A stretch of DNA of 64,000 bases from an uncultured Latescibacterota bacterium (GTDB taxonomy: Bacteria > Latescibacterota > UBA2968), in the NCBI GenBank assembly GCA_958295785.1, contig OY282377.1:5024896-5088895 (forward strand), in the 5' to 3' direction. Below are positions 16,261-39,573 of the stretch, piece after piece; positions within the stretch are counted from its first letter, which is position 1, and each line of letters opens with the position of its first letter. The notes under the pieces are model-generated. The model had not been told where the DNA came from. It saw only the letters and a program-made list of their open reading frames with translations, and did no database searches. The position numbers and the translations under genes were made by a program.

Positions 16261-17016
16261 CTATACAGCCGCTTTCACAATGGCGGCAAACGCGTCGGCC
16301 TCCAATGAAGCCCCGCCGATCAAGCCGCCGTCGATATTGTCTTGGTCAAACAACGCCGCCGCATTGTCGGGCTTCACAGACCCGCCGTATTGAATGCGAA
16401 CCGCCTGTGCGACCTCGTCGCGATAAAGCCGCGCCAGCACTTGGCGGAGAAACCCATGGACCGCCTCGGCTTGTTCTGACGTAGCGGTCAGGCCCGTGCC
16501 AATGGCCCACACAGGCTCGTAAGCCAAGGTGATACCCTGCACATCGTCAGCGGAAAGACCGTTGAGCGCGCCCCGCATTTGCGCTTCGACCACTTGCTCG
16601 GTTCTGTCGGCCTGACGCTCATCCAAAGACTCGCCAAGACACACAATCGGTTTGAGTCCAGCACGCAGGGCAGTTTTTAAGCGGCGGTTTACGGTCTCGT
16701 CTGTTTCGCCGAAAAATTGCCGGCGTTCAGAGTGCCCTAATATAACGTATTCACAGCCGCAAGTCAACAGCATGGGAGCAGACACCTCGCCCGTAAACGC
16801 CCCCTCAGACGCCCAGTACATGTTCTGAGCCCCCAGCCCTATCGCCGTGCCGCGCACCGCGCTTGCAACTCGTTCCAATGCGGGAAAGGGCGGGCAGATC
16901 GCCACATCCACACCGGTTATCCCGGATACGGCATCTACCACGCATCGCGCCAGGGTTTCGGCCTCATCGGGCGTTTTGTTGAGTTTCCAATTGCCCGCCA
17001 CAAATGGCGTTCGCAT
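16261..17016 (-). CDS. tpiA: Triosephosphate isomerase
   Basis: Interconverts dihydroxyacetone phosphate and glyceraldehyde 3-phosphate. The 251 residues include the substrate lysine in AGNWKLN (near 11), catalytic His in LGHSERRQ (near 97), catalytic Glu in AYEPVWAIGTG (near 167) and the phosphate loop GGSVKPDNA and IGGASL. Full length. It lies 41 bases after pgk and 8 before secG. Confidence 0.98.
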   Translation of the reverse strand: MRTPFVAGNWKLNKTPDEAETLARCVVDAVSGITGVDVAICPPFPALERVASAVRGTAIGLGAQNMYWASEGAFTGEVSAPMLLTCGCEYVILGHSERRQFFGETDETVNRRLKTALRAGLKPIVCLGESLDERQADRTEQVVEAQMRGALNGLSADDVQGITLAYEPVWAIGTGLTATSEQAEAVHGFLRQVLARLYRDEVAQAVRIQYGGSVKPDNAAALFDQDNIDGGLIGGASLEADAFAAIVKAAV

Positions 17017-17057: not shown

Positions 17058-18266
17058 TTATGCTTCATCGTCTTCTCTATCCGACAGTGCCGCCACGCCG
17101 GGCAAGGTCTGGCCTTCTAAAAACGCCAGCGAAGCCCCGCCTCCTGTCGAGACATGGCTCAATTTTTTTGCCACGCCAAAATCTGCCATCGCAGCCGCGG
17201 TTTCCCCCCCGCCGACAATCGTCGTCGCGCCCTGCTCGGTTGCCGCGACCAGTGCATTGGCAACCGCACGCGATCCTTTGGAAAACGAGTAAATCTCGCA
17301 CGCGCCCAAAGGCCCGTTCCACACCCCTGTTTTGGCATTGAGGACCACATCGGAAAATCGCTGCCGCGTTTCAGGCCCGATGTCAAACCCTTCCATGTCT
17401 GCTGGAATGCGATCTCGCGGCACGATTTGGACAGGGACGCCTTCGGCCATCTCTGATGCCACAACCGTATCGACGGGCAGAATGAGGTTCACGCCTTCGG
17501 CCTCTGAGCGGTTGAGCAACTCGGCGGCGACCTCAACGCGGTCTTCTTCCAACAACGACTTGCCGATTTCCAAGCCCATCGCCTTAAAAAACGTAAATGC
17601 CATGCCCCCGCCGATGAGCAGGGTATCGACTTTTGAAAACAAATTTTCGATGATGTCAATTTTGCCGGAAATTTTTGCCCCGCCCATAATCGCGACATAA
17701 GGCCGTGCGGGATCGGCCAATGCCGCGCCGAGATAATCCAACTCCTTTTGCATCAACAAACCCGCAGCACACTCGAGAAAATAATGGGTGACGCCCTCGG
17801 TGGAGGCATGGGCGCGATGGGCCGTGCCAAACGCATCGTTGACATACACATCGCCCAATTCAGACAACTGCTTGGCAAAGCCGGGCGCGTTGGCCTCTTC
17901 ATCGGCGCGAAAGCGCAAATTTTCGAGCAGCGCGACCGCCCCTTCGGGCGTGCGTTTGACCGCTACGGCAGTTGCCTCACCCACGCTATCGGGCGCCAAT
18001 ACCACTGCGCGCCCGAGCAGGAGTTGCAGGGCTTCGGCTATGGGTTTGAGCGAGAGTTCGGGCACGACCTCGCCCTCGGGCCGACCCAGATGAGACATCA
18101 ACACGGGTTTTCCGCCCGCGTCTAAAATGTGCCGGATCGTGGGCAACGCAGCACGCAAGCGCGTGTCATCCGCAACCCGCCCATCTTCGAGCGGCACGTT
18201 AAAATCGACGCGCACCAAAACGCGCTTGTCCGTCAAATCCAAATCTGTAATCGACACTTTTGCCAC
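17058..18266 (-). CDS. pgk: Phosphoglycerate kinase
   Basis: Transfers phosphate from 1,3-bisphosphoglycerate to ADP. 402 residues, normal length: [15 protein letters not shown] at the N-terminus, SHLGRPEG, the central hinge, [18 protein letters not shown] and the C-terminal nucleotide-loop GGGETAAA and STGGGASL. The start is GTG at 18266 with GAGGAG 7 bases upstream; an ATG seven codons earlier overlaps that ribosome site. Only a fragment of another gene separates it from the restriction-modification island upstream. Confidence 0.97.
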
Positions 18267-18320
18267 GTTATTCTCCTCAATCGCCATCGCTTACTGCTTC
18301 CATTCGATATGGCCGTTATT
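18210..18320. repeat. Direct repeat (pgk 5' end plus HIEWK remnant), copy at pgk
   Basis: Matches 19185-19290 over about 100 bases with scattered differences. Minus strand, it holds a short coding remnant NNGHIEWKQ-stop followed by the pgk start. The second copy ends the truncated HNH gene with INGHIEWKR-stop and then repeats the first 15 or so pgk codons. Confidence 0.75.
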
Positions 18321-19184: not shown

Positions 19185-19290
19185 AGCGCACCAAGTGTCC
19201 GTCAAATCCAAATCTGTCATCGACACCACCGCCACGCCATCGCTCAATCGCTCACGCTCACCGCTTCCATTCGATATGACCGTTGATATC
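19185..19290. repeat. Direct repeat, distal copy carrying a pgk N-terminal fragment
   Basis: The minus strand encodes VAVVSMTDLDLTDTWCA, a mutated copy of the pgk N-terminus ([15 protein letters not shown]), next to the HNH C-terminus. This marks a duplication of the pgk 5' end flanking the methyltransferase gene. Confidence 0.75.
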
Positions 19291-20004: not shown

Positions 20005-21096
20005 TAGGACTTACGCATGCTGAGTTAAAAAAGGGTGCAATTCCGTAAAATTTATCACTTTGAGGAGGTGTCAATGCGCCAACCGACGCGTTTGGATTAC
20101 TGTCAGTATCTGCTTAGCAGTCCCCTCAACGATACGCTGACCCATTTCGCCGACCATAGCGAAGGGTTCAGTCATGATATGATCAACCGCTATCTCGCCG
20201 GTGATCGTATCCCCCCCCGCTTGGTGTGGGAACACGTCAAAGACCACATCGCGTTGACGCCTGAAGGCTATGTGATCTTTGATGACACGGTTTTAGACAA
20301 GCGACACGCACGCAAGATCGCGTTAGTGCGCCGTCAATATAGCGGCAACGCCCAAGGCGTCATCAATGGCATTGGGGTGGTCACATGTGTCTATGTCAAT
20401 CCGCAACAGGATCGGTTCTGGCTGATTGACTATCGGATTTATGACCCGCAAGGCGATGGCAAAACCAAATTGGATCATCTCAAGGACATGCTCTCTGGGT
20501 TGGTCTATCAGAAGGACCTTCCTTTTACCGGGGTCTTGATGGACAGTTGGTATGCGACCAAAACGGTCATGCTACACATAGAGCAGATGCAAAAAACCTA
20601 TTATTGTCCCCTCAAGACGAACCGGCGCGTGGACGAGTAGGCAGGCACAATCCCCTACCAGCGCGTAGATAGCTTAACTTGGACGAAAGCGCAACGCAAA
20701 CAAGGCAAGTCCATTAAAATCAGAGGGTTTCCCAAAGACCACAAAGTGAAATTATTCCGGGTGGCGTCTGCTGCCAGACGCACGGCGTATGTCGTGACCA
20801 ACGACCATGCTCAAAACGATTCTTCAGTGGTACAACAGGTGTGTCACCAAAGATGGAAAATTGAGCAATTTCACCGCGAAGTCAAACAAGTGACCGGGCT
20901 TGAAAAGTGTCAATGTCGGTTGGCACGCATTGTACGAAATCATATTGGGTGTGCGATGTTAGTTTGGATAAGACTCGAGCAGGTGGCCTATCAAACAGGA
21001 CAAACCATTTATCAAGTCAAATACCGAGGGCTGGCTGACTTCTTGAGACAACAACTCAAAGCACCTCATATTCCAATGGTGATTGCGTAAGTCCTA
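20005..21096 (+). mobile_element. Insertion sequence IS-1092, copy 1 (IS701-like)
   Basis: 1092 bp with 13-bp perfect terminal inverted repeats TAGGACTTACGCA and 5-bp direct repeats AATAT (20000-20004 and 21097-21101). Two more copies of the same length lie at 58678-59769 and 62058-63149. Confidence 0.92.
20074..21090 (+). pseudogene. DDE transposase of IS copy 1, nonsense-mutated
   Basis: Transposase of an IS4-clan/IS701-like family, 338 codons in the intact copy. FDDTVLDKRHARK (first catalytic Asp), MDSWYAT (second) and IEQFHREVKQ (Glu) are present. At 20638 the codon pair GAT TCG of the intact copy reads GAG TAG, so translation stops after NRRVDE. The catalytic Glu lies beyond the stop. 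The ATG has GAGGAGG upstream. Confidence 0.85.
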
Positions 21097-21306
21097 AATA
21101 TGTTGGATCAATTTTTCAAAAATCTTTCCCTTAAAAGCACGCCAACTCTGTTCATGATCACCATAGGGTTTGTCTTTCAAAAAATCCTGCTTATGACGTT
21201 CTTTGGCATCCCGTAAAAGTTGGGAAACCGATTTGTAGGCTTTCTTTCGCACCCTCCATCACTAGCGTCTGCCCGTACATATCTCTTAAATCCGCAAAAT
21301 CCATAT

Positions 21307-22626: not shown

Positions 22627-22666
22627 AAATGAGCCTCCATTGCTCAAAGCGGTTATGTGCTACAAA

Positions 22667-23329
22667 CTATTGCAGGTCGTCTGTAATCCGTTCAAGTCTT
22701 CGGAGATTGTGCTGTTCAACAAAATTTTCGTGCAAAATATATGCGACATCCAATTCGTGCAACACAATGGCTTTGCTCTTATTAATTTTATTATTCGTAA
22801 AGGTATTATCTCTATCAGGCGTGAGAAAGAACATTTTGATGTGTCGCGTAACAGGGCAGGAACGCAATCTTAACTTCCAATATCCGGTTTGGGCAATGCG
22901 CTCTCGTAGCGATATCTTACAGGAAATAATGGCTTTTACAGAGGCATCAGAAGGATCGTACACTATAATATCAGCATCCGGCATGTAGCATCTATGAATG
23001 CCGAAGTCAACGACAATATTGCGCTTAACTTGACAAAGCACTGTGTCATTTTGTTCTTTTTCAAGTATTGAGCCTTGAATCAACTCGAGCGGGAGTCCCG
23101 CCTCGTCAATCAGTTTCGAGAGAATGTGAATCATGAGCTTCTCGAAATTTTGACCACTCCACGAGCGCCACGATTGATCCATATCACCTTTGAAACCCTC
23201 TTTCTGCTTTTCCTGCACATACAATTCTTTGGCTTTCTCCAAAAAAGCAGACAGATTGTTGTAGGCTTTCGGATTGCGTTTGACCTCTTCATCATAGAGA
23301 TTCTGGAGGTCTTCAAATTCAAATGGCAT
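22667..23329 (-). CDS. BsaWI-like type II restriction endonuclease B
   Basis: 220 residues. An N-terminal helical region (FEFEDLQNLYDEEVKRNPKA, DQSWRSWSGQNFEKLMIHIL) is followed by the nuclease core with YMPDADIIVYDP (catalytic Asp) and IISCKIS (xxK), then LRERIAQTGYWKLRL. The RER element matches the R-(D/E)-R signature used by CCGG-family enzymes to read CCGG. Full length and intact, unlike its paralogue A downstream. The start is ATG 23329 after GGGAG. The methyltransferase begins 41 bases downstream, forming a B-methyltransferase-A operon. Confidence 0.8.
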   Translation of the reverse strand: MPFEFEDLQNLYDEEVKRNPKAYNNLSAFLEKAKELYVQEKQKEGFKGDMDQSWRSWSGQNFEKLMIHILSKLIDEAGLPLELIQGSILEKEQNDTVLCQVKRNIVVDFGIHRCYMPDADIIVYDPSDASVKAIISCKISLRERIAQTGYWKLRLRSCPVTRHIKMFFLTPDRDNTFTNNKINKSKAIVLHELDVAYILHENFVEQHNLRRLERITDDLQ

Positions 23330-23384
23330 TATCCGTTCTCCCAAAGAGGGCGTGAGGGTCAACGGAAACAGGCCGGGGCTGTTT

Positions 23385-24431
<1,047 letters not shown>

Positions 24432-24446
24432 TTATCGCAGTCCATC

Positions 24447-25487
24447 TTATCCAAAAAATACTTTGGCAATGTCGTAAAGTCCCATATCCACGGTACGCAA
24501 TTTCGACACGGCCTCTTTCAAATCAATCGCGATGATGTTTTGACCGCGCAGCGCGACCATTTTGCCAAAATTGCCTTCGCCTATCAGGTCAATGGCCGCA
24601 ATCCCAAATCGCGTTCCCAGCACGCGGTCATAAGCCGAGGGACTGCCCCCGCGTTGAATGTGACCCAGCACGGTTGCGCGACTTTCATAGCCGGTTCGCC
24701 GCTCAATTTCATCGCTCAACAAATTGCCAATGCCGCCCAGGCGCACATGCCCAAAAGCGTCTTTTTCCCCCGACTGCAAAACCATGCTGTCGTCTTCGAG
24801 CTTGGCGCCTTCGGCCACCACCACGATGCTAAACGTCTTGCCGCGCGCATGGCGTTTGCGGATGGTGTCGCACACGTCATCCAAATCAAACGGCACTTCT
24901 GGGATCAGAATCACATCTGCCCCCCCCGCGATACCCGATTCTACGGCGATCCACCCGGCGTGGCGGCCCATAACTTCTACGACCATTACGCGGTTGTGCG
25001 ATTCGGCGGTGGTGTGCAGGCGATCTATCGCTTCCATCACGATATTGATCGCCGTGTCAAAACCAAAGGTTTGATCCGTGCCATCCAAATCATTGTCAAT
25101 CGTTTTGGGCACGCCGACCACTTTGATCCCCTGTTCGGTGAGGCGATGGGCCACGCCGAGCGTATCATCGCCTCCAATCGCGATCATCGCGTCCAGGTTC
25201 ATTTTTTTCATGCCCGCTCGAACAAGCGCGCCGCCATTTGCCCCGTCTTGATACGGATTTGTCCGCGACGATCCCAAAATCGTTCCCCCGCGTGGCAAAA
25301 TCCCCGAAACAGCGTCCAAACTTAGCGGGTTTGACATGCCTTCGAGCATCCCCTTCCACCCTTCCAACACCCCGATCATTTCGTAATCATAAGCCGCAAT
25401 GCCCTTGCGAACAATTGCGCGGATCACCGCGTTCAGGCCTGGGCAATCGCCGCCCCCGGTCAGTATGCCAACGCATTTTATCGCCAT
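24447..25487 (-). CDS. 6-phosphofructokinase, group III (PPi-type active-site residues)
   Basis: 346 residues of the PFK family. ILTGGGDCPGLNAVIRA at the N-terminus, AIGGDDTLGVA, VVGVPKTIDNDLDGTD and VMGRHAGWIA are visible. In place of the GGDGS and PGTIDND of ATP-dependent E. coli enzyme, it has GGDD and PKTIDND. Asp and Lys at these positions go with pyrophosphate use in the family, so it may be a reversible PPi-PFK; mixed-substrate group III enzymes make this uncertain. ATG at 25487 follows GGGAG. It ends 30 bases before gap. Confidence 0.92.
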   Translation of the reverse strand: MAIKCVGILTGGGDCPGLNAVIRAIVRKGIAAYDYEMIGVLEGWKGMLEGMSNPLSLDAVSGILPRGGTILGSSRTNPYQDGANGGALVRAGMKKMNLDAMIAIGGDDTLGVAHRLTEQGIKVVGVPKTIDNDLDGTDQTFGFDTAINIVMEAIDRLHTTAESHNRVMVVEVMGRHAGWIAVESGIAGGADVILIPEVPFDLDDVCDTIRKRHARGKTFSIVVVAEGAKLEDDSMVLQSGEKDAFGHVRLGGIGNLLSDEIERRTGYESRATVLGHIQRGGSPSAYDRVLGTRFGIAAIDLIGEGNFGKMVALRGQNIIAIDLKEAVSKLRTVDMGLYDIAKVFFG

Positions 25488-25742
25488 AAAATCTCCCTTT
25501 GCAAAATCTTCAAACGAACACGCTCGTGCGGTTTTCAAAGGTTTCAAGTGTATAAAATTGTAGCATACATGTCAAGCCTGCCGTAAGGAAATCGGCGGAA
25601 CAGCGAATCTACGGATCTGCGGAACGGGGTACAACTGACCGTTTTTCAGAAGCTGTTTTAAGACTAAAATACGCCCCCCCTGGCCCCTCCCCGCAATGGG
25701 GAGGAGAGACGTTATTTCCCCCTTCCTCGTAGGAAGGGGGGT
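25488..25742. other. Intergenic region upstream of pfk
   Basis: No gene seen. Contains the short ACGGGGTACAACTG motif near 25617 and a GC-rich inverted repeat (CCCCTCCCCGCAATGGGG near 25680) that recurs inverted at about 44995-45045. Confidence 0.4.
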
Positions 25743-26205
25743 TATACCAATTTGCTTTCAAGTTGTCCGTATCCTGCCTCACATCAGGGATGAATGAGGA
25801 ATGGGGAACAGACGTTCCGTAGAGATCATGCGTTGTTTGTCTCAAGCGTTTGGTTCTGCCTCCTTGTGGGTTGCCTTTGATGCCTTCGGCGTCAAACGCT
25901 CAAATTATTCGCGTTTTCATACTTTTTTTCAACAAAAAAAAAAAGGAGGCAAAAAATGCCGCTCTCAAACGCCGAGAGGCTGGCACAGCGCAAAACGCTT
26001 TTGTAGCACTACGACATGCGTTGGCCTGCGAGGTGGGTTGCCCAATGAACGTGGGTTGCGAGACGGACTTGCGCGCTGTGCGCGATGGCTTTATCCGATG
26101 GTCTTTTGGGATGGCATTTTGCCAGGGCTTATTTGACGTACTGCGTAACGGCAAGGGGATCGCTTGCTGGCAACATAGCGCATCACATGAGGCCAACTGA
26201 AAATC
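25743..26205 (+). repeat. Family-2 long repeat, copy a
   Basis: About 460 bases starting ACCAATTTGCTTTCAAGTTG and TCCGTATCCTGCCTC and ending near GCTTGCTGGCAACATAGCG. Related copies lie at 32367-32860 and 49911-50381. No continuous reading frame is shared by all copies, so it looks noncoding or long dead. An IS5-type element abuts its end. Confidence 0.75.
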
Positions 26206-26217
26206 AATTTAGAAGCC

Positions 26218-26688
26218 CTAACATAAAGAAATCAAGCGTCTGAAACAGAGGAGTGAACAGCCGATGGAGAGGAACGCCTCATGGATGTCCGCTCTGCGTT
26301 CGTCGCGCACCCGCAGGCTGCGGAACTGACGGAGCCAGGCCAGCGTCCGCTCAACGACCCACCGGTACACGCCCAACCCGCTACCATGCTCTGCACCCCG
26401 TCGGGCGATCACCGACGAGATGTGGCGCGCACGCAGGGCCTTCCGGTGTGCCCTCGAGTCATAGGCACGCGCCGCATACAGCCGTTGGGGTCTGCGACGC
26501 GGACGACCGCGTTTGCCCCTGACCGCGGGCACAGCGTCCACCCATGGCAACCATTGCGTCACATCTGGCCGGTTCGCCCCGGTCACAATCGCGGCCAAAG
26601 GTACCCCGTTGGCATCGGTGATCCCATGATGCTTACGCCCGGGCTTGCGGCGGTCTGTGGGATTGGGGCCGGTTTTTCCCCCCAGCAC
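26218..26688 (-). pseudogene. IS5-type transposase, orfB, copy A, catalytic Asp lost
   Basis: 156 codons continuing the transposase. Copies B and C read LYADRAYDSR at the second catalytic Asp; copy A reads LYAARAYDSR, so the catalytic Asp is Ala. The Glu helix VVERTLAWLRQFR remains. Copy A is predicted inactive. Confidence 0.75.
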
Positions 26689-27028
26689 CTACCGCACGCA
26701 GGGAGGCGCTGTCCACGCAGGCACGAGACCAATCCAGGCCATCGGCCGCTCGCAGTTTGGACAACAGCAGATGATGAAGCCGCTCCCACACGCCGGCGTC
26801 ATGCCATGCCTTCAGACGACGCCAGCAGGTCATCCCGGAACCACACCCCATCTCTTGGGGCAACTGCTCCCACGGGATGCCGCTCTTCAGGACGAATAGC
26901 ATGCCGGTCAACGCCTTGCGGTCATCAATGCGCTTACGTCCGGGAAAGCGGAACCGTCCAGGCTTGGGAACCGGCAAAAGGGGGTGGACCTTTTCCCAGA
27001 GTTCATCGCTCACGAGTGGTTTGGACAT
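26633..27028 (-). CDS. IS5-type transposase, orfA, copy A
   Basis: 131 residues. MSKPLVSDELWEKVHPLLP start, DRKALTGMLFVLKSGIPWEQ and the first catalytic Asp in ACVDSASLRAVGAGGKNRP. AAGGAGG lies 5 bases before the ATG. The frame ends shortly after a G6A5 run where the ribosome would need to change frame to continue into orfB. Confidence 0.85.
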   Translation of the reverse strand: MSKPLVSDELWEKVHPLLPVPKPGRFRFPGRKRIDDRKALTGMLFVLKSGIPWEQLPQEMGCGSGMTCWRRLKAWHDAGVWERLHHLLLSKLRAADGLDWSRACVDSASLRAVGAGGKNRPQSHRPPQARA

Positions 27029-27404
27029 CTGTTCCTCCTTGCCCGGTTGCAGATGCCGGGCAAGGACGTTGTAAGGGTTGGGCTGAGGAGAAAATCGGCC
27101 TCTCACAAATCCATGTCAACGCTTTCTGTTAGGGCTTCTTAAAATCAAATGGGTATAACTGTCTGAAACGCGTATTAACCAGATGGCGCAGATGACGCGG
27201 ATTGGGCGGCACCGGTAGGGCAGAACGTGCAGGGGGTGTAAAGGATGTAGCAGGTGCGGAGGACGCAGTGAGTGGCAGGGGGTGGGGTTAATCCGCGCAA
27301 TCCCTAAATCCGCGACAATCCGCGATTCAGACAAGGGACTGACCGCTTGATGGCGGGAATGGGTGACGAACCACTTGACAGAGCGAGAGATATTGCAGAT
27401 TATT

Positions 27405-27801: not shown

Positions 27802-28815
27802 ATGGCAGAATACGATACGATTTCCAAACATTTGATTCAAACCTACCCTGCCGATTTCGTCCGCTTCACCCTCGGACGGGCCGATGTCGAAATCCGCGCA
27901 ATCCTCGACCCCGAGATCCCTAGGGTTGAAACGCGCTTAACCGATAGCCTGATTCGCGTGTGGATTGATGGCGAGGAGGTCTTGGTACACACGGAATTTC
28001 AAACCACCGACAGCAGGGATTCCCCCATGCCGATCCGCATGGCCAGCTATATCATCCGGCTCATTGAATACTATGGCCTGCCGGTCTATTCCCATGTGAT
28101 CTACCTCCGGCCCGATGCCGGGCGACGCGATGAAGGGCTTTACCTCCAAAAGCATCCGGACTACCCAGTGGTGGTGCGCTATAAGGTGATTCGGCTGAAC
28201 GAGATAGACGGGCAAGACATTGTTGAGGGCGGTCATCCGGGTTTGCTTCCATTCGCGCCATTGATGAAGCGTCCTGCGGGGATGACTTCTGAGGAATGGT
28301 TGCGTCAGTGCATTCGCAGGACCGATGCCGTGTCGTTGGCGCAGGCAGAAAAGGCTAACTTTTTGGGCGGCTTGGCAGTATTAAGTGGGTTGGCGTATGA
28401 TCCAAACACTATCACGAGTATCATTTCTCAGGAGGGTCTTATGGACGCGATTATGCGTGAATCATCGTTTGCCCAATACCTCAAGGAACAGGGCGTTAAA
28501 CAAGGCATTGAGCAGGGCATTGAGCAGGGCATTGAGCAAGGCATTGAGCAAGGCATTGAGCAAGGCATTGAGCAAGGCATTGAGCAGGGCATTGAGCAGG
28601 GCATTGAGCAGGGCATCGAGCAGGGCATTGAGCGAGGCATCCAAGAGAGCATCCGAGAAGCGTTGGCGGTTCGCTTTGATGCGGGTGTGGCCGGCCAGTT
28701 CGCTGATCGCATTGCGGTCATCGACGATTTGCAACGGCTCAAGCAGTTGCTTCATGCGGCGGTGCAAGTCAATAATCTGGCGGCATTTCAGCGTGTGTTG
28801 GATGCGGAGGCATGA
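27802..28815 (+). CDS. Rpn-family PD-(D/E)XK nuclease A1 with GIEQ repeats
   Basis: 337 residues. The N-terminal nuclease domain (about 1-160) carries the superfamily residues Asp48 (RLTDSLIR) and Glu65-x-Gln67 (VHTEFQT), as in recombination-promoting nuclease/PDDEXK_2 proteins. Residues 214-337 form a separate C-terminal unit: MDAIMRESSFAQYLKEQG, then eleven tetrapeptides GIEQ (the last GIER) from 235, and a helical tail. An ATG at codon 214 has its own strong ribosome site. Rpn proteins are toxic DNases linked to anti-phage defence. A near-identical gene lies in the inverted arm at 38500-39573. The start has only a weak upstream site. Confidence 0.85.
   Translation: MAEYDTISKHLIQTYPADFVRFTLGRADVEIRAILDPEIPRVETRLTDSLIRVWIDGEEVLVHTEFQTTDSRDSPMPIRMASYIIRLIEYYGLPVYSHVIYLRPDAGRRDEGLYLQKHPDYPVVVRYKVIRLNEIDGQDIVEGGHPGLLPFAPLMKRPAGMTSEEWLRQCIRRTDAVSLAQAEKANFLGGLAVLSGLAYDPNTITSIISQEGLMDAIMRESSFAQYLKEQGVKQGIEQGIEQGIEQGIEQGIEQGIEQGIEQGIEQGIEQGIEQGIERGIQESIREALAVRFDAGVAGQFADRIAVIDDLQRLKQLLHAAVQVNNLAAFQRVLDAEA
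28428..28443 (+). promoter_or_regulatory. Intragenic Shine-Dalgarno and start inside rpn A1
   Basis: CTCAGGAGGGTCTTATG: an 8-base near-perfect Shine-Dalgarno 4-5 bases before an in-frame ATG at codon 214. Conserved at the same codon in all four full rpn genes and in both truncated copies. Confidence 0.75.
28441..28815 (+). CDS. Predicted intragenic Rpn C-terminal protein (RpnS-like), A1
   Basis: 124 residues in the same frame as the full gene, covering the GIEQ repeat and tail but not the nuclease domain. In E. coli, small proteins translated from within rpn genes bind and block the full-length toxin. The internal ribosome site here is stronger than that of the full gene, which supports independent expression; expression itself is inferred. 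Confidence 0.6.
   Translation: MDAIMRESSFAQYLKEQGVKQGIEQGIEQGIEQGIEQGIEQGIEQGIEQGIEQGIEQGIEQGIERGIQESIREALAVRFDAGVAGQFADRIAVIDDLQRLKQLLHAAVQVNNLAAFQRVLDAEA
28504..28635 (+). repeat. 12-bp tandem repeat (GIEQ), 11 units
   Basis: Units GGCATTGAGCA(A/G), ten GIEQ and a final GIER. Unit number differs in the related copies: 16 (38680-38871), 10 (37626-37745) and 8 (38165-38260). Confidence 0.95.
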
Positions 28816-29499: not shown

Positions 29500-30210
29500 C
29501 TATTCGTCTGTTCGTCCATCCACATCTTGAGAGAAATCATCCCCATCCACAGGCGGACTGGCAACAGCCCCTACAGACACGTCACGCGCGCCAGCGGCTC
29601 GCAAAGCGAGAGCGCATGCATTGAGCGTTGCGCCGGTCGTGATGACGTCGTCAATCAAAAACACCTTTTGCCCTTCAATCGCCGCGGGCTTACGCACGCG
29701 AAATGCCCCCATCACATTGTATTGGCGTTCAAAAACGCCCAAGCGCGTTTGCGTGGGGGTTGCGCGCATGCGGTTCAGCGCGTTGGCGATCACGCTGACG
29801 CCCGATACCCGTCCCGCGGCCCGTGCGATCACCTCGCTCTGATTGTACCCACGCGCTCTTTTTTTCGCCGGATGGAGTGGCACAGGGACGATCACCGCAT
29901 CGGGATCGACCGCATTCGCTATCCGCTGTCCCAACGCCTCGCCGAATATCTGCCCGGGAAGCGTTTTGCCCCGGTATTTGAGCGCGTGAATCAAGGCCCG
30001 AACACAGTCGTTAAATTGGTATAAAATCACGGTTTGATCAAATTCGTATTCAAAACTCGCTTTGTGTACTTGTGGATCCCAAGCCTCGAGCTCATCCCGA
30101 CGCGAATCACACATCCCCGGCAAGTTGGGCAACGGGGCTTTGCAAATCAAACAGGACGACGGATACACAAAATTTATGGTTGCTTGCCAAATTTTTCGCG
30201 CTGCTCGCAT
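29500..30210 (-). CDS. comF: ComF-family phosphoribosyltransferase-like protein
   Basis: 236 residues. VPVPLHPAKKRARGYNQSE and the PRPP-binding VFLIDDVITTGAT are the ComF signatures. The N-terminal zinc-binding region has CLIC and one more Cys (near 34), but the fourth expected Cys reads Ser (GMCDSRR), so zinc binding may be weakened. The family is needed for DNA uptake in competent bacteria, but the gene is also widespread in non-competent ones. Stands alone, divergent from the HAD-YvcK gene. Confidence 0.9.
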   Translation of the reverse strand: MRAARKIWQATINFVYPSSCLICKAPLPNLPGMCDSRRDELEAWDPQVHKASFEYEFDQTVILYQFNDCVRALIHALKYRGKTLPGQIFGEALGQRIANAVDPDAVIVPVPLHPAKKRARGYNQSEVIARAAGRVSGVSVIANALNRMRATPTQTRLGVFERQYNVMGAFRVRKPAAIEGQKVFLIDDVITTGATLNACALALRAAGARDVSVGAVASPPVDGDDFSQDVDGRTDE

Positions 30211-30383: not shown

Positions 30384-32345
30384 GTGTCTCTGGAAAATGC
30401 CCGTGCTGTCGCGTTCGATTTCGACGGCACGCTTTTTGACTTGACGCCCGTTGTCAAGGCCGCTCGCAAGCGAGTCGCTGCCTTGCTGTTTTCAAACGGC
30501 TTTTTCGCCTCTCGGGCCTACGCGCTCAAACGCATTGAGGTGCTCGAACGCAAACACGGCCCTTATTATTCGTCCTCGCCCTATTATTTTGCGTTTTTCG
30601 ACATTGCCAAAGCGATCTTCAAGGACAAGCCCGACCAGGTTCGCGGCTTTCTCGACAAACAAAATACCGACCCGGAAGCCGATCCCGTGGAAGCACTCGT
30701 AGCCGAAATGGAGCGCGTGTACAACGCCGAAGAAGTCGAAGACATTCGCCCCTATTCAGATGTTTTGCACACCCTTCGGGAATTGCGTATCGCGGGCTAC
30801 AAACTGTTCATGGTCACGCTGGGCAGGTCGCGGCGGCAGCGCAACAAAATTGATCGCTTGGGCATTGCCCCCTATTTTGACCGCATCATCAACGAAGGCC
30901 CGCCCGCACACGAGTACTGGTTTTCAGAACTCATGGAAAGCCACGGCCTCTCGCCCGACCAACTCGTCGTTGTTGGCGACCGCACACACGATGAAATCCG
31001 TGCGGGCAATCGCCAGAACCTCACCACCGTTTGGTTGCGGCGCGGCAGATTTTCCCGGGAAACACCTATGTTGGGAGACCGCCCTGACTACGAAATCAAA
31101 TACCTCTCTCAACTCTCTACGTTGTTGCACTTGGCGCGGCTGGGCAAAAACCCCGATCAATTCAAAGTTGCCGTTATCGGCGGCGGAACGGGGTTGCCCA
31201 CGGTTTTGCGCGGGTTGCGGCCCTATACCCATCATCCGACAGCGGTCGTCGCCGTGACCGATACCGGCGCGTCTTCCGGGCGCATCCGCTGGAATTTGGG
31301 CGTGCAACCCCCGGGCGACATTCGCAATGCCCTCACCGCGCTCGCCGATCCCCAACAGGTCTCGCAAGGGCTTTTTCGCGTCTTTCAACATCGCTTTCCC
31401 AACAGCGAACACGAATCCGGCATTTTTAAGAACGACCACATCGGCAATTTCCTGGTTGCCGCACTCACGCAGCAACTCGGGGATTTTCACGCGGCCATCC
31501 AAACCGCCAGCGACATGCTGCACGTTCAGGGCACGATTTTCCCCGCGAGTACGGACAATGTCGATATTTGCGCCGAACTGGTAAATGGCGAACACCGCTA
31601 TACCGAATGGATGGTCAGAAAGCCCGGCAAGCCGCCGCTCGAGCGAGCCTATCTCGTTTCGAACACCGCGCTTTTGAACGAACTCAATCGCAAGGGCAAC
31701 GCGCTCGAGCGCACGGTCGATCCCGAAACCGGACAAGTTGAAATTCGCGCGTGCAAGGGGCAAAATGTGGGGTTGGAACAAAACCGGGTCAGCGCGCCAC
31801 GCGGGGCCTTGCAGGCCATTGCAGATGCCGATGTCGTGGTCATTGGGCCGGGCAGTTTGTTCACCAGCGTGATCACCAACCTCCTCGTGCCCGACATTCA
31901 GCAGGCCCTCATAGACCGCAGCCAGGGCAAAACCATCTACGTGTGCAATATCGTCACGCAGCCCGGGCAGACCGACCATTTTCGCGCATCAGATCATCTC
32001 AAAACGATCCTCCGCCACTTTCCCAAGGATCAGCCTGCGGGCATCATCGATCACATGCTGGTGCAAGACCCTCGGGTTTTCCAAACGCCCAAAAGCCGTG
32101 CGTGGCACCCCTTGCTCGAGCAGTACAAAAAAGATGGCAAAGTTCTCGTTGCGTGCGATTCGGAAACGCTCGACGCGATGGGGGCGTGGACGCAGGCGGA
32201 CTTTGTCGAGGAATTTCAACCCGAAGCCACAGAGCGCGGGGTGGGCGATTTCATCAGCCACGATCCGGCCAAAGTCTCCGATGCAATATGTCGCATCTTC
32301 TGCGGCCTGAGCGTGCCGGATTATTGGGGCTTGGATGAGTATTAG
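30384..32345 (+). CDS. Fused HAD hydrolase - YvcK/CofD-like protein
   Basis: 653 residues. The first 250 or so form a HAD-family phosphatase: VAFDFDGTLFDLTP (nucleophile Asp), a Thr/Ser motif in MVTLG, and VVGDRTHDEI. The remainder is a YvcK/CofD-fold domain: VAVIGGGTGLPTVLRGL (about 260), VAVTDTGASSGRIR, PPGDIRNALTALA, GNFLVAALT and VIGPGSLFTSVI. YvcK proteins act in carbon metabolism and cell shape in other bacteria and bind UDP-sugars. The two domains are normally separate proteins. The start is GTG 30384 with GGAGGG upstream; ATG 30240 would add 48 residues of unlikely sequence. Confidence 0.85.
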   Translation: MSLENARAVAFDFDGTLFDLTPVVKAARKRVAALLFSNGFFASRAYALKRIEVLERKHGPYYSSSPYYFAFFDIAKAIFKDKPDQVRGFLDKQNTDPEADPVEALVAEMERVYNAEEVEDIRPYSDVLHTLRELRIAGYKLFMVTLGRSRRQRNKIDRLGIAPYFDRIINEGPPAHEYWFSELMESHGLSPDQLVVVGDRTHDEIRAGNRQNLTTVWLRRGRFSRETPMLGDRPDYEIKYLSQLSTLLHLARLGKNPDQFKVAVIGGGTGLPTVLRGLRPYTHHPTAVVAVTDTGASSGRIRWNLGVQPPGDIRNALTALADPQQVSQGLFRVFQHRFPNSEHESGIFKNDHIGNFLVAALTQQLGDFHAAIQTASDMLHVQGTIFPASTDNVDICAELVNGEHRYTEWMVRKPGKPPLERAYLVSNTALLNELNRKGNALERTVDPETGQVEIRACKGQNVGLEQNRVSAPRGALQAIADADVVVIGPGSLFTSVITNLLVPDIQQALIDRSQGKTIYVCNIVTQPGQTDHFRASDHLKTILRHFPKDQPAGIIDHMLVQDPRVFQTPKSRAWHPLLEQYKKDGKVLVACDSETLDAMGAWTQADFVEEFQPEATERGVGDFISHDPAKVSDAICRIFCGLSVPDYWGLDEY

Positions 32346-32366
32346 CGGTCGGCAAGAGAGTTTTTA

Positions 32367-32860
32367 TACCAATTTGCTTTTGAGTTGTCCGTATCCTGCC
32401 TCCTATCAGGGAGGAATGAGGGATGGGGAACAGACGTTCCGCAGCACTCAGGCGTTGCTTGTCTAAAGCGTTTGGTCCTACAGCATCGTTTGTTGCCTTC
32501 GATGCGTTGGCTACGCCTGTGCCTACGGCGTGCGGCGACCGACTTTTTTTCAACAGCAAAAAAAGTAGGCGAGCGGGGTACAACTGCCCCAGCAGTTCAA
32601 AAATGCCGCTCTCAGGCGCCGAGAGGCTGGCACAGCGCAAATCGCTTTTGTAGTATACGCCATGCGTTGGCCTGCGAAGAGAGTTGCAAGATGGATGTGG
32701 GTTGCGAGACGGCCTTGCGCGCTGTGCGTGATGGTTTTGTCTGATGGGCTTTTGGGATGGCATTTTTGCAATGGCTTATTTGACGTACTGCGTAACGTCA
32801 AGGGGATCGCTTGCTGGCAACATATCGCATCACATGAGGACAACAGCTATTCAATTTGGT
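32367..32860 (+). repeat. Family-2 long repeat, copy b
   Basis: About 490 bases: ACCAATTTGCTTTTGAGTTG at the start and GGGATCGCTTGCTGGCAACA near the end. Internally holds GCGGGGTACAACTGCC. No gene seen in this gap. Confidence 0.75.
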
Positions 32861-32949: not shown

Positions 32950-33636
32950 ATGACAAAAAAAATTAAAGGCATCATCTTCGATCTCGACGATACCTTGTTC
33001 GACTGCATGGGTCAACTTACCCAACCGGCCCGGCGCAGGGCCGCGCGTATCCTCGCTTCGGCGCGTCCCGGTCTCTCCGTTGAAACCGCTTGCCGACAAC
33101 AGGAGTTGCTCGCCCAAACCCATGAATCTTCAGAGGCGATTCGCGTGCTCGGTGTGCAACGCGATATTCCGCCCCACATCGTCAAACGGGCACTCGATGC
33201 GTACAATTCCCTCAAGGTAGAAGCCATCGCGCCATTTCCCGATGTGCCAGACATTCTTGCGACCCTTACTCAGCGCGATTATGAGCTCGCCCTTGTCACC
33301 GCTGGATACCCCGACCGCCAGCGCGAAAAAGTTCACCTGCTCGGCTTGGGCGATTATTTTAGCGAGACCGACAACACGCTCATTTTATGCGACACCCGCA
33401 AAACCGACAAAGGGCCATGCCTCGTGCAGGCCGCAAAAGTCCTCGCGCTGCCCCACGCCCAAATCCTCTGCGTGGGCGACAAACTCACCGACGAGATCGC
33501 CGCTGCCAATACCCTCGGCATGACCACCGTTCGCATGCGCCACGGGCGACAAAAACACAGAGTACCCCAAACGCCAACAGAACAACCCGATTGCGAAATA
33601 GACCGCATCGCGCAAGTGCTGTCACTCCTGCCATAA
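32950..33636 (+). CDS. HAD-superfamily hydrolase
   Basis: 228 residues. IIFDLDDTLFDCMGQ with the nucleophile Asp, ALVTAG, RKTDKGP with the catalytic Lys and CVGDKLTDEIAAAN with the metal-binding Asp. A phosphatase of small phosphorylated metabolites; substrate unknown. No ribosome site stands out before ATG 32950. Related in fold to, but not a duplicate of, the HAD half of the upstream fusion. Confidence 0.85.
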   Translation: MTKKIKGIIFDLDDTLFDCMGQLTQPARRRAARILASARPGLSVETACRQQELLAQTHESSEAIRVLGVQRDIPPHIVKRALDAYNSLKVEAIAPFPDVPDILATLTQRDYELALVTAGYPDRQREKVHLLGLGDYFSETDNTLILCDTRKTDKGPCLVQAAKVLALPHAQILCVGDKLTDEIAAANTLGMTTVRMRHGRQKHRVPQTPTEQPDCEIDRIAQVLSLLP

Positions 33637-34687: not shown

Positions 34688-35189
34688 AGTGATGTTACGC
34701 ACATCTACACTTGTGTTGCGTGCTTGTGTAAAGCGTTTGGCAATGTACCGTCGTCTCTCGTGTCAATTCACCGGCATTCGCAACAAAATGATCGACGATT
34801 GAATCGGCAACCCGCCCAACACGACAAACATCGTGATCTGAATGCCGATCATCCAGCGTTGACCCGCACCGTGATTTTTTTTAATGGGAATTATATACTT
34901 TCCAACCCTAAATCATCTTGTTAAAGTAATCACGGGTTTTTGGTGTTGAATGCAAGCGCCCTCTGATTTTCGGCACGCCTGCCCCTAACATCTAACGTTT
35001 CAAAACGTTTTCCTTCGCGTCTTTCAGGAACGGATAACATTTGCATGCGTGGATAACATTTCCCGTTGACTTCCATATCGCTCGCCTGTGCCATAAAGGT
35101 TGTTCATGCAACCCCCCCACTGGCTATAAGTTGCTTGTAAGTCAACCGTGCGCCCATCGCCATATTCAACATCTCATCAACACGACTTA
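34688..35189. other. Gene-poor region with decayed coding fragments
   Basis: No intact gene. On the minus strand, 34763-34912 encodes a hydrophobic fragment (QRWMIGIQITMFVVLGGLP, then MPVN-stop) that looks like the C-terminus of a membrane protein. The stretch before 35190 encodes a short VDEMLNMAMGARLTYKQLIA tail whose upstream part is removed by the IS at 35190. Confidence 0.35.
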
Positions 35190-35298
35190 GAGTCCCTAAC
35201 AAAAAGGGTTGACATGGATTTGTGAGAGGCCGACTTTCTTCTCAGCCCAACCCTTACAACGTACATGCCCGGCATCTTTATCGGGCGAGGAGAGACAA

Positions 35299-35694
35299 AT
35301 GTCCAAACCATTGGTGAGCGATGAACTCTGGGAAAAGGTCCAACCCCTTTTACCGGTTCCCAAGCCGAGACGATTCCGCTACCCCGGACGTAAGCGCATT
35401 GACGACCGCAAGGCGTTGACCGGCATTCTATTCGTCCTGAAGAGCGGCATCCCGTGGGAGAGATTGCCCCAAGAGATGGGGTGTGGTTCCGGGATGACCT
35501 GCTGGCGTCGTCTGAAGGAATGGCATGAAGCCGGCGTGTGGGAGCGGCTTCATCATCTGCTGTTGTCCAAACTGCGAGCGGCCGATGGCCTGGATTGGTC
35601 TCGTGCCTGCGTGGACAGCGCCTCCCTGCGTGCGGTAGGTGCTGGGGGGAAAAACCGGCCCCAATCCCACAGACCGCCGCAAGCCCGGGAGTAA
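35299..35694 (+). CDS. IS5-type transposase, orfA, copy B
   Basis: 131 residues starting MSKPLVSDELWEKVQPLLP, with the first catalytic Asp in ACVDSASLRAVG. The ribosome site is GAGGAGAG. A few substitutions separate it from copies A and C. Confidence 0.85.
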   Translation: MSKPLVSDELWEKVQPLLPVPKPRRFRYPGRKRIDDRKALTGILFVLKSGIPWERLPQEMGCGSGMTCWRRLKEWHEAGVWERLHHLLLSKLRAADGLDWSRACVDSASLRAVGAGGKNRPQSHRPPQARE

Positions 35695-36109
35695 GCATCA
35701 TGTGATCACCGATGCCAACGGGGTGCCTCTGGCCGCGATTGTGACTGAGGCGAACCGGCATGATGTGACGCAATTGTTGCCCTTGGTGGACGCTGTGCCT
35801 GCGGTCAGGGGCAAACGCGGTCGTCCGCGCCGCAGACCCCAACGGCTGTATGCAGACCGTGCCTATGACTCGAGGGCACACCGGAAGGCCCTGCGCGCAC
35901 GCCACATCTCGCCGGTGATCGCCCGACGGGGTGCAGAGCATGGCAACGGGTTGGGCGTGTACCGCTGGGTCGTTGAGCGGACGCTGGCCTGGCTCCGTCA
36001 GTTCCGCAGACTGCGGGTGCGCTACGAGCGCAGAGCGGACATCCATGAGGCGTTCCTCTCCATCGGCTGTTCACTCATCTGTTTCAGACGCTTACTTTCT
36101 TTATGTTAG
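35639..36109 (+). CDS. IS5-type transposase, orfB, copy B
   Basis: Up to 156 residues in the +1 frame relative to orfA, overlapping it by 56 bases across GGGGGGAAAAAC. Catalytic Asp (LYADRAYDSR) and Glu (VVERTLAWLRQFR) are intact. Probably made as an orfA-orfB fusion by frameshift. Confidence 0.8.
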   Translation: MLGGKTGPNPTDRRKPGSKHHVITDANGVPLAAIVTEANRHDVTQLLPLVDAVPAVRGKRGRPRRRPQRLYADRAYDSRAHRKALRARHISPVIARRGAEHGNGLGVYRWVVERTLAWLRQFRRLRVRYERRADIHEAFLSIGCSLICFRRLLSLC

Positions 36110-36118
36110 GGCTTCTTA

Positions 36119-36974
36119 AGGTATCACCCTTTTTTCGATTGATGCGAAACACGCAAGCATTCAGGTACTTTTGCATGTGTTTGTCTGACCAATGGTGATG
36201 AATACCCATATAGACACGCTTAACCCGTGCCCACAAACTCTCAATGGCGTTCGTATGGACACCATCGCGTTCATATTCGTCGGCAGAAGGATTGATTTGT
36301 TCCCCTTCGTAATCATCCCTCAATGCGCCGTATGCGCTGTTCTCGTCTGCATGAATAGTTGCGCCCGTCAAGACCTAGTTCAACATCTGATCGTGTCATG
36401 TGGCCCCTTTTGCATCCTGTACATGAACCGCCATTGCCTCACCATCTTCACCTTTTTCCCGCATTCCGAAAGCAACTGATTTACCTACTCTTCCGCGACC
36501 CGCATTCAACTTTTTGGATTTATGTTTGTTCTTTTCTTTGCCACCGATGTAGGTTTCATCAATTTCAACGATACCAGACAGAAAATCATCATCATCACCG
36601 TCTTTGTTGCCAAAAGCGTTTCGTATTCTTTGACGCATAAACCAAGCGGTCTTTTGCGTTGTACCGATCATTTTAGCCAACTGAACGCTTGAAATACCTT
36701 TTGGGTGGTTCGTTTCAATCCATATTGCGGCGAACCATTTAGGCAACATCTTGATTTTAGACTTGCCAAACATCGTTCCGTAAATAATATGAAAATTACG
36801 CCCACAATCCGAGCACCTATACGCCAAATCAGAACGACGATAGATTTTTCCCATACGCCCACAATGCGGACAAGACTCGCCATCCTTAAAGCGTATCTTT
36901 TCAAGGTGCAAAATACACGCTTCAGGCGTGGCAAACTTCTGTGTGAACGCGACGAAACTAAGCTACTTTGCCAT
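36119..36974 (-). pseudogene. IS1595-type (ISXO2-like) transposase, decayed
   Basis: Frame begins MAK, then TAG at codon 4, then LSFVAFTQKFATPEAC. The zinc ribbon (CPHCGRMGK and CSDCG), NHPKGISSVQLAKMIG and the DDE segment VEIDETYIGGKEKN follow. Further TGA and TAG stops interrupt the same frame near 36395 and 36370. Then HADENSAYGAL and GIHHHWSDKHMQKYLN appear. The C-terminus is cut by IS copy B. AAGGGGG precedes the original ATG. Confidence 0.82.
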
Positions 36975-37423: not shown

Positions 37424-37960
37424 TGTCATTCAGCGGGAAATCGCGTCATGCCTCCGCATCCAACACACGCTGAAATGCCGCCAGATTATTGACTTGCACC
37501 GCCGCATGAAGCAACTGCTTAAGCCGTTGCAAATCGTCGATGACCGCAATGCGATCAGCGAACTGGCCGGCCACACCCGCATCAAAGCGAACCGCCAACG
37601 CTTCTCGGATGCTCTCTTGGATGCCCTGCTCAATGCCCTGCTCAATGCCCTGCTCAATGCCCTGCTCAATGCCTTGCTCAATGCCTTGCTCAATGCCCTG
37701 CTCAATGCCTTGCTCAATGCCCTGCTCAATGCCTTGCTCAATGCCTTGTTTAACGCCCAGTTCCTTGAGGTATTGGGCAAACGATGATTCACGCATAATC
37801 GCGTCCATAAGACCCTCCTGAGAAATGATACTCGTGATAGTGTTTGGATCATACGCCAACCCACTTAATACAGCCAAGCCGCCCAAAAAGTTAGCCTTTT
37901 CTGCCTGCGCCAACGACACGGCATCGGTCCTGCGAATGCACTGACGCAACCATTCCTCGG
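37424..37960 (-). repeat. Tandem duplication of rpn 3' region, unit 1
   Basis: About 537 bases spanning codon 176 or so of rpn A2 to just past its stop. The junction with unit 2 (CATTCCTCGG joined to ATTGTCATTCAG) is identical to the unit 2/full-gene junction at 38475, so both units arose by the same unequal event. Confidence 0.9.
37446..37808 (-). CDS. Stand-alone Rpn C-terminal protein (RpnS-like), unit 1
   Basis: 120 residues from the conserved internal ATG (AGGAGGG upstream) with ten GIEQ units (37626-37745) and the common tail. Open frame extends back to 37949 but without a ribosome site. No nuclease domain is encoded upstream in this unit, so it can only make the C-terminal protein. 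Confidence 0.65.
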   Translation of the reverse strand: MDAIMRESSFAQYLKELGVKQGIEQGIEQGIEQGIEQGIEQGIEQGIEQGIEQGIEQGIEQGIQESIREALAVRFDAGVAGQFADRIAVIDDLQRLKQLLHAAVQVNNLAAFQRVLDAEA

Positions 37961-38475
37961 ATTGTCATTCAGCGGGAAATCGCGTCATGCCTCCGCATCC
38001 AACACGCGCTGAAATGCCGCCAGATTATTGACTTGCACCGCCGCATGAAGCAACTGCTTAAGCCGTTGCAAATCGTCGATGACCGCAATGCGATCAGCGA
38101 ACTGGCCGGCCACACCCGCATCAAAGCGAACCGCCAACGCTTCTCGGATGCTCTCTTGGATGCCTTGCTCAATGCCCTGCTCAATGCCCTGCTCAATGCC
38201 CTGCTCAATGCCCTGCTCAATGCCTTGCTCAATGCCCTGCTCAATGCCTTGCTCAATGCCTTGTTTAACGCCCAGTTCCTTGAGGTATTGGGCAAACGAT
38301 GATTCACGCATAATCGCGTCCATAAGACCCTCCTGAGAAATGATACTCGTGATAGTGTTTGGATCATACGCCAACCCACTTAATACAGCCAAGCCGCCCA
38401 AAAAGTTAGCCTTTTCTGCCTGCGCCAACGACACGGCATCAGTCCTGCGAATGCACTGACGCAACCATTCCTCGG
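37961..38475 (-). repeat. Tandem duplication of rpn 3' region, unit 2
   Basis: 515 bases, same limits as unit 1 but with eight GIEQ units; differs from unit 1 by only a few substitutions outside the tandem repeat. Confidence 0.9.
37985..38323 (-). CDS. Stand-alone Rpn C-terminal protein (RpnS-like), unit 2
   Basis: 112 residues, as unit 1 but with eight GIEQ tetrapeptides (38165-38260). Same AGGAGGG ribosome site. Confidence 0.65.
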   Translation of the reverse strand: MDAIMRESSFAQYLKELGVKQGIEQGIEQGIEQGIEQGIEQGIEQGIEQGIEQGIQESIREALAVRFDAGVAGQFADRIAVIDDLQRLKQLLHAAVQVNNLAAFQRVLDAEA

Positions 38476-38499
38476 ATTGTCATTCAGCGGGAAATCGCG

Positions 38500-38934
38500 T
38501 CATGCCTCCGCATCCAACACGCGCTGAAATGCCGCCAGATTATTGACTTGCACCGCTGCATGAAGCAACTGCTTGAGCCGTTGCAAATCGTCGATGACCG
38601 CAATGCGATCAGCGAACTGGCCGGCCACACCCGCATCAAAGCGAACCGCCAACGCTTCTCGGATGCTCTCTTGGATGCCCTGCTCAATGCCCTGCTCAAT
38701 GCCCTGCTCAATGCCCTGCTCAATGCCCTGCTCAATGCCCTGCTCAATGCCTTGCTCAATGCCCTGCTCAATGCCTTGCTCAATGCCCTGCTCAATGCCT
38801 TGCTCAATGCCTTGCTCAATGCCTTGCTCAATGCCTTGCTCAATGCCCTGCTCAATGCCCTGCTCAATGCCTTGTTTAACGCCCAGTTCCTTGAGGTATT
38901 GGGCAAACGATGATTCACGCATAATCGCGTCCAT
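38500..38934 (-). CDS. Predicted intragenic Rpn C-terminal protein, A2
   Basis: 144 residues from the ATG at codon 214 of rpn A2, preceded by CTCAGGAGGGTCTT. Longest repeat tract of the set. Expression is inferred from the ribosome site. Confidence 0.55.
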   Translation of the reverse strand: MDAIMRESSFAQYLKELGVKQGIEQGIEQGIEQGIEQGIEQGIEQGIEQGIEQGIEQGIEQGIEQGIEQGIEQGIEQGIEQGIEQGIQESIREALAVRFDAGVAGQFADRIAVIDDLQRLKQLLHAAVQVNNLAAFQRVLDAEA

Positions 38935-39573
38935 AAGACCCTCCTGAGAAATGATACTCGTGATAGTGTTTGGATCATACGCCAACCCACTTAATACAGC
39001 CAAGCCGCCCAAAAAGTTAGCCTTTTCGGCCTGCGCCAACGACACGGCATCGGTCCTGCGAATGCACTGACGCAACCATTCCTCGGAAGTCATCCCCGCA
39101 GGACGCTTCATCAATGGCGCGAATGGAAGCAAACCCGGATGATCACCTTCAACAATGTCTTGCCCGTCTATCTCGTTCAGCCGAATCACCTTATAGCGCA
39201 CCACCACTGGGTAATCGGGATGCTTTTGGAGGTAAAGCCCCTCATCGCGTCGCCCGGCATCGGGCCGTAGGTAGATCACATGGGAATAGACCGGCAGGCC
39301 ATAGTATTCAATGAGCCGGATGATATAGCTAGCCATGCGGATCGGCATGGGGGCATCCCTGCTGTCGGTGGTTTGAAATTCCGTGTGTACCAAGACCTCC
39401 TCGCCATCAATCCACACGCGAATCAGGCTATCGGTTAAGCGCGTTTCAACCCTAGGGATCTCGGGGTCGAGGATTGCGCGGATTTCGACATCGGCTCGTC
39501 CGAGGGTGAAGCGGACGAAATCGGCAGGGTAGGTTTGAATCAAATGTTTGGAAATCGTATCGTATTCTGCCAT
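38500..39573 (-). CDS. Rpn-family PD-(D/E)XK nuclease A2 with 16 GIEQ repeats
   Basis: 357 residues, nearly identical to rpn A1 (27802-28815) apart from a few substitutions and the repeat number (16 GIEQ against 10 GIEQ plus GIER). Asp48, Glu65 and Gln67 are kept. The internal start is at 38934 (codon 214), giving a possible 144-residue C-terminal protein. Two partial copies of its 3' half follow downstream in tandem. It sits in the right inverted arm with tnpB remnant upstream. Confidence 0.85.
   Translation of the reverse strand: MAEYDTISKHLIQTYPADFVRFTLGRADVEIRAILDPEIPRVETRLTDSLIRVWIDGEEVLVHTEFQTTDSRDAPMPIRMASYIIRLIEYYGLPVYSHVIYLRPDAGRRDEGLYLQKHPDYPVVVRYKVIRLNEIDGQDIVEGDHPGLLPFAPLMKRPAGMTSEEWLRQCIRRTDAVSLAQAEKANFLGGLAVLSGLAYDPNTITSIISQEGLMDAIMRESSFAQYLKELGVKQGIEQGIEQGIEQGIEQGIEQGIEQGIEQGIEQGIEQGIEQGIEQGIEQGIEQGIEQGIEQGIEQGIQESIREALAVRFDAGVAGQFADRIAVIDDLQRLKQLLHAAVQVNNLAAFQRVLDAEA

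Follow-up and report, generated by a model that had tools for sequence, protein, structure and literature searches.

The stretch of DNA analysed here, 64,000 nucleotides in length and referred to below as the window, holds on its forward strand a gene in which a HAD phosphatase and a YvcK/CofD-like domain are joined, with a second, stand-alone HAD phosphatase beyond it and a set of glycolytic genes on the opposite strand. The features that the following paragraphs draw on are listed by their coordinates in the window.

30384..32345 (+): HAD-YvcK fusion gene, 653 codons, GTG start
30384..31133 (+): HAD phosphatase domain, residues 1-250, placed by Pfam, alignment and modelled fold
31134..31163 (+): linker, residues 251-260, placed by the secondary structure of the model and alignment
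31164..32342 (+): YvcK/CofD-like domain, residues 261-653, placed by Pfam, NCBIfam, PDB alignment and modelled fold
31662..31796 (+): insert stretch of the fusion clade, residues 427-471, placed by alignment
32256..32258 (+): codon of Ser625, aligned with B. subtilis Arg301 and B. halodurans Arg300, placed by the family alignment and the 2o2z alignment
32364..32857 (strand not assigned): repeat copy between the fusion and HAD2, its other copy at 25742-26210
32950..33636 (+): HAD2, stand-alone paralogous HAD phosphatase, 228 aa, placed by Pfam
29500..30210 (-): ComF-like phosphoribosyltransferase-fold gene (TIGR00201 at 98.5 bits, below its cut-off of 233.55)
24447..25487 (-): pfk, phosphofructokinase, placed by Pfam and NCBIfam
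23385..24428 (-): gap, GAPDH, placed by Pfam and NCBIfam
17058..18287 (-): pgk, phosphoglycerate kinase
16261..17016 (-): tpi, triosephosphate isomerase

The fusion gene, which has GGAGG 7 nt upstream of its GTG, runs through 653 residues without an internal stop, and its product is matched by PF00702 at residues 7-208 (65.5 bits, cut-off 26.4) and by the CofD family PF01933 at residues 262-601 (260.5 bits, cut-off 30). The initial annotation had described two complete domains in a single frame of this length and had named a missed stop or start near codon 255 as the point on which that description might fail; the Pfam matches and the uninterrupted frame bear the description out, and the possible flaw finds no footing in the 17 complete fusion genes checked (that of the window and those of 16 relatives), none of which contains an internal stop. 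In the 30 codons before the GGGTGL motif, two of these genes lack any start codon, while the remainder carry a varied assortment of TTG, GTG and ATG codons with none common to all; judged from these sequences, internal initiation between the HAD and CofD parts is not conserved, although one or another gene may use it. An AlphaFold2 model of the whole protein has a pLDDT of 77.4 and a pTM of 0.81. Both fused domains are under purifying selection: in seven comparisons of the window with same-genus relatives, dN/dS comes to 0.075-0.113 for the HAD part, 0.046-0.064 for the first part of the CofD domain and 0.081-0.108 for its last part, the insert (about residues 426-471) standing above both domains at 0.26-0.43.

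The fused frame is present in all 21 sampled genomes of the order, which span two families and eight genera, at full length in 20 of them and cut by a contig end in the other (G014). Outside the order, none of 43 genomes of the phylum, a set that includes the 26 other genomes of the class, matches the query at 1e-20, and a search for the CofD family gave no match in those 26 class genomes, the B. subtilis control being silent in the same search. B. subtilis carries both yvcK and yvcJ. Because this control was silent in the CofD and RapZ searches, yet gave matches for GlmS and GlmU, absences from the former two are not airtight. Two wider samples, which overlap in their genomes, were also searched. 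The first, of 386 genomes chosen outward from the window, gave matches in 43 genomes outside the order (E up to 1e-25), every one starting at query residue 246 or beyond; the second, of 389 genomes centred on G164, gave matches in 155 outside the order (E up to 1e-15), with starts of at least 244 among the matches listed. No HAD like the fused one is attached to an outside CofD among the matches listed, a comparison to which an unrelated fused HAD would be invisible. One long frame of 671 aa, in G190, was considered as a fusion and rejected, being an Arg-rich read-through ahead of an ordinary YvcK. No relative of the fusion was found in viral contigs; the scan of genome contigs used two exact 8-residue patterns and reaches close relatives only. 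The same architecture, when sought in other genomes, was recovered in all sampled genomes of the order and not seen in the wide outside samples, so that the fusion is real and conserved and, in these samples, appears to be a trait of one order. By title, no paper on a HAD-YvcK fusion was found in the open-licence literature.

The unfused relatives were studied at 60 loci, taken from 59 of the 67 matching genomes outside the order; 57 of these loci contain an ORF recognised by a CofD profile (E up to 1e-10). The HAD part is absent from all 57 CofD ORFs, and a HAD profile at E up to 1e-3, which detects HAD2 in 16/16 relatives and would miss remoter HADs, found no HAD ORF near the CofD gene at any of the 57 loci; the single weak HAD hit, an ORF at E 1.4e-4, comes from L154, which is among the three loci that yielded no CofD ORF. 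With no HAD gene near these 57 genes, the HAD and YvcK functions show no independent association. More than 80 residues precede the CofD match in 36 of the 57 unfused frames, and 35 of those 36 hold a strongly hydrophobic window, so that many unfused YvcK proteins look as though they carry a membrane segment in the place where the fusion carries its phosphatase. A tree of the CofD domain (69 rows, its bootstrap not settled) gathers the 12 fusions into a single clade (100/100) whose branch is long (1.2); the nearest unfused rows, L127 and L144-L146, join it with weak support (90/92) and do not have the insert.

HAD phosphatases are marked by four motifs, DxDGT, T/S, K and GDxxxD, and the fusion carries them as D12xD14GT, T145, K155 and G198D199xxxD203. 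Across the 12 aligned fusions D12, D14, G15, T16, K155, G198, D199 and D203 are invariant and position 145 is either T or S. The modelled domain adopts the HAD fold, with Z up to 16.1 (to 2gfh), but since Z does not separate the best structural matches, 2gfh (NANP), 2hoq (PH1655) and 2hsz (phosphoglycolate phosphatase-like), we claim no substrate from structure. Nor is one assigned by family, as every specific NCBIfam HAD model falls below its cut-off on the fusion, including the CTE7 subfamily model TIGR02253 (99.8 bits, cut-off 169.75).

The stand-alone HAD2 of the window aligns to part of the fused HAD at about 33% identity and lacks the HGPYYSSSPYYF stretch that is invariant in 12/12 fusions. 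HAD2 is the next gene after the fusion in all 16 relatives with enough contig, and in 13 of these it starts before the fusion gene has ended: in six its start overlaps the fusion stop as ATGA, and in seven more its first motif lies 11 nt past that stop, which places its start inside the fusion gene. For L045 and L053 the distance from stop to motif is 92 and 36 nt, respectively, and L060 was missed by the pattern. None of the 16 relatives has room between the two genes for the repeat of about 500 bp that lies there in the window, and whose two copies (25742-26210 and 32364-32857) are 84-95% alike in four blocks. In the window this intervening repeat has cost the overlap, with both genes still open.

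On the other side of the fusion the ComF-like gene is divergently oriented, with 173 bp between them, and is followed by genes of glycolysis. In a neighbourhood set of 18 loci (17 relatives and the window), pfk lies beside the fusion in 18, comF in 17, gap in 16, pgk in 14 and tpi in 14. All of these genes run opposite to the fusion, and contig ends and the size of the stretches explain some of the gaps; downstream, a convergent SAM hydrolase gene is found in 17/18. In nine loci of the sister class, taken from 26 sister genomes, pfk, pgk and tpi occur together in all nine, and neither the fusion nor HAD2 was found there. Several further elements are seen in the window. A restriction-modification-like module at 18409-23362 (-), comprising two N6/N4 DNA methylases and two BsaWI-type endonuclease ORFs, parts pgk from gap, genes that adjoin in relatives. 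An ORF with a long EQGI tandem repeat occurs at 27802-28815 and 37446-39573 in four copies, two of full length (337 and 357 aa) and two shorter, and the one copy scanned has no Pfam match. An inverted repeat pair (26208-27139 and 35189-36119; 838 nt at 94% and 89 nt at 91%) flanks the fusion region and carries two-frame ORFs that by eye resemble an insertion sequence.

The second half of the protein belongs to the YvcK subfamily by the NCBIfam model TIGR01826, which scores the window fusion at 249 bits against a cut-off of 196 and is passed by all three fusions scanned, the two relatives reaching 235.1 and 229.8 bits. By comparison, the F420 CofD model TIGR01819 (2-phospho-L-lactate transferase) reaches 35.4 bits against 257.45 and the GAK-system CofD-like model TIGR04357 reaches 95.8 against 340. 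The modelled YvcK part superposes on B. halodurans YvcK (2o2z_C) over 285 residues with Z 28.0 and an rmsd of 3.1, and FbiA/CofD structures match the model at Z 15-17. What distinguishes the fusions lies within this conserved frame. The portion of the mutational work on B. subtilis YvcK drawn on here ranks Tyr265 and Arg301 as most important for UDP-GlcNAc binding, with Thr14 and Asn218 mattering less (PMC5482804). Three of these four residues, Thr269, Asn522 and Tyr581 in the numbering of the fusion (Thr14, Asn218 and Tyr265 in B. subtilis), are kept in 12/12 fusions, whereas the Arg301 position is Ser in 11 and Gly in one; in 57 unfused proteins it is Arg in 47 and Lys in three. For want of the arginine, the YvcK-type UDP-sugar binding put forward in the initial annotation is not safe to assume. 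Y265 is itself absent from Listeria GlmR, according to the sections consulted of PMC10128056, so not every residue of the UDP-GlcNAc site is universal.

The same source, in those sections, reports that Listeria GlmR makes UDP-GlcNAc from GlcNAc-1-P and UTP, and that a D40A/D41A/N198A triple mutant loses uridyltransferase activity by about 100-fold (PMC10128056). The proposed set is not kept whole in the fusions: the D40 position is retained as Asp293 in 12/12 and the N198 position as Asn499 in 11/12, but the D41 position is Thr in 11 and Ser in one, although it also varies in 20 of the 57 unfused proteins. The fusions are further set apart by the insert of about 40 residues in the middle of the YvcK part, where the stretch is 45 letters long in 12/12 fusions and 4 to 18 in 57/57 unfused proteins. 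The YvcK fold has been kept, but from the changes at Arg301 and D41, the insert and the long branch we infer that the ligand or its binding mode has probably shifted, so that binding in the fusion probably departs in some respect from that of UDP-GlcNAc by Bacillus YvcK. The pocket geometry around Ser625 is unreadable in the model, pLDDT being below 50 at loop 292-356 and at residues 619-622.

The roles ascribed to YvcK/GlmR differ in the literature as sampled here, extending from UDP-sugar binder to GlmS activator to uridyltransferase. The genome of the window (G000) is a single contig with a completeness of 99.34%. In it no protein reaches the GlmS cut-off (TIGR01135), which is exceeded in 14/14 controls; of two weak hits, one is PurF-like (304.4 bits against 350) and the other an asparagine synthase. 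The RapZ/YvcJ family PF03668 was found in 0/47 class genomes and in 6/14 controls, with B. subtilis, which carries the gene, silent. Given this RapZ result with its imperfect control and the missing GlmS, the Bacillus GlmS/YvcJ route is not to be assumed. GlmU is likewise not seen over cut-off in this genome, which is weaker evidence because 5/14 controls also fall below the GlmU cut-off; a GlmU-like archaeal-type sugar-1-phosphate nucleotidyl/acetyltransferase is present (230.5 bits against 292.1). MreB, MreC and AnmK are encoded, so the missing GlmS is not read as a missing wall and some wall metabolism is likely, as far as gene content tells. The word 'peptidoglycan' is absent from the portion of PMC4454575 covered by a search on Latescibacter. 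A 513-aa frame elsewhere in it (L212 410-1948; G000:C1:752500-754500) resembles, by eye, a nucleotidyltransferase in its first half and a CDP-alcohol phosphotransferase in its second, which is hydrophobic.

The reading that we favour, while holding it tentatively and at somewhat less than an even chance, is that of a glycolysis-linked soluble two-domain protein in which the HAD domain dephosphorylates a small metabolite and is controlled by, or works in series with, the YvcK part. The YvcK-type Rossmann domain would most likely bind a nucleotide-containing metabolite, the HAD domain would be a Mg-dependent phosphatase for a small phosphorylated intermediate in central sugar or amino-sugar metabolism, and the fusion would couple this phosphatase step to whatever the YvcK domain binds or makes, with HAD2 as a companion phosphatase that in most relatives may be co-translated. 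Support comes from the HAD motifs (12/12), the YvcK cut-off and fold match, the retention of Thr269, Asp293, Asn522 and Tyr581, the gene order, the purifying selection and the HAD2 overlap, and against it count the loss of the Arg301 equivalent and of the second proposed catalytic Asp, the lack of HAD genes near the 57 unfused CofD genes, the failure of family models to assign a HAD substrate and the low pLDDT of loop 292-356. A substrate or signal common to both domains, as first suggested, is plausible. Taken as a whole, the original interpretation stands in its fusion and in its link to carbon flow, the latter through the divergent comF-pfk-gap-pgk-tpi order, and becomes unsafe where it presumes UDP-sugar binding of the Bacillus kind.

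Next in rank, and unlikely rather than negligible, is a catalytic YvcK part, comparable to Listeria GlmR or to CofD/FbiA but using an altered nucleotide or acceptor, while the HAD removes or supplies the phosphorylated partner in consecutive steps. The uridyltransferase reaction of Listeria GlmR, the conserved Asp293 and Asn499, the fold match to FbiA/CofD and a genome with neither GlmS nor GlmU over cut-off, which may need another route to amino-sugar nucleotides, all point this way. Weighing on the other side are the replaced D41, softened by its variation among unfused proteins, the archaeal-type GlmU-like protein together with the modest sensitivity of the GlmU model among controls, and the very low score of the F420 CofD model.

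That the protein is a Bacillus-like YvcK/GlmR regulator, exerting UDP-GlcNAc-responsive control over amino sugars with the HAD as an added output, seems to us quite unlikely. It would fit the TIGR01826 score and three of the four UDP-GlcNAc-site residues, but the Ser or Gly at the Arg301 place in every fusion and the lack of GlmS over cut-off in a search that all controls pass speak against it, as does the lack of RapZ from the class, though the silence of the B. subtilis control makes that search imperfect. More doubtful again is a general house-cleaning HAD that operon order happened to bring into fusion, with uncoupled domains. An unfused paralogue does adjoin the fusion and the NCBIfam HAD models assign no substrate, as such an origin would allow, yet the fusion is kept in 21/21 genomes from two families and eight genera, and each of its parts is under purifying selection. 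An assembly or frameshift artefact is ruled out for practical purposes by the 20 full-length copies in as many genomes of the order, that of the window included, and by the 17 stop-free genes.

A more speculative reading, which we consider rather unlikely, would make the protein a new transferase or sensor of the CofD/YvcK superfamily with a changed ligand, in view of the Arg-to-Ser change and the extra insert, whose own HAD dephosphorylates its substrate or product and so steers sugar phosphates between glycolysis and the amino-sugar or nucleotide-sugar pools without a recognisable GlmS. A phosphatase covalently tied to a YvcK, order-wide, beside glycolytic genes and in a genome without a recognisable GlmS, offers through its HAD activity a concrete handle on the YvcK substrate.

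Among known systems, the GAK-system CofD-like proteins resemble the fusion by a partial sequence match, well short of the TIGR04357 cut-off, and CofD/FbiA of F420 biosynthesis by a distant fold match at Z 15-17, but not by the TIGR01819 score. The IA-type HAD phosphatases (2hoq PH1655, NANP/HDHD4 and the phosphoglycolate phosphatase-like proteins) have the catalytic motifs and HAD fold in common with it, from which it differs in lying below every specific NCBIfam cut-off and in being joined to a YvcK. The accessory uridyltransferase GlmR of Listeria is like the fusions at the D40 and N198 positions (12 and 11 of 12, respectively) and unlike them at D41, where they have Thr or Ser. Closest are the YvcK/GlmR (CuvA) proteins of TIGR01826, with the structures 2o2z, 2hzb, 2ppv, 2q7x and 2p0y. 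These and the fusion have in common the subfamily cut-off, the fold, GGGTGL, the Asn of YxCN, the Tyr and most signature residues, while the fusion genomes depart from the Bacillus GlmR system in RapZ, not found in the class (with an imperfect control), and in GlmS, not seen in the genome of the window. The fusion itself departs from YvcK/GlmR in the Ser or Gly at the Arg301 equivalent, in the insert of about 40 residues and in its N-terminal HAD, carried where the sampled unfused proteins have nothing or, mostly, a hydrophobic segment.
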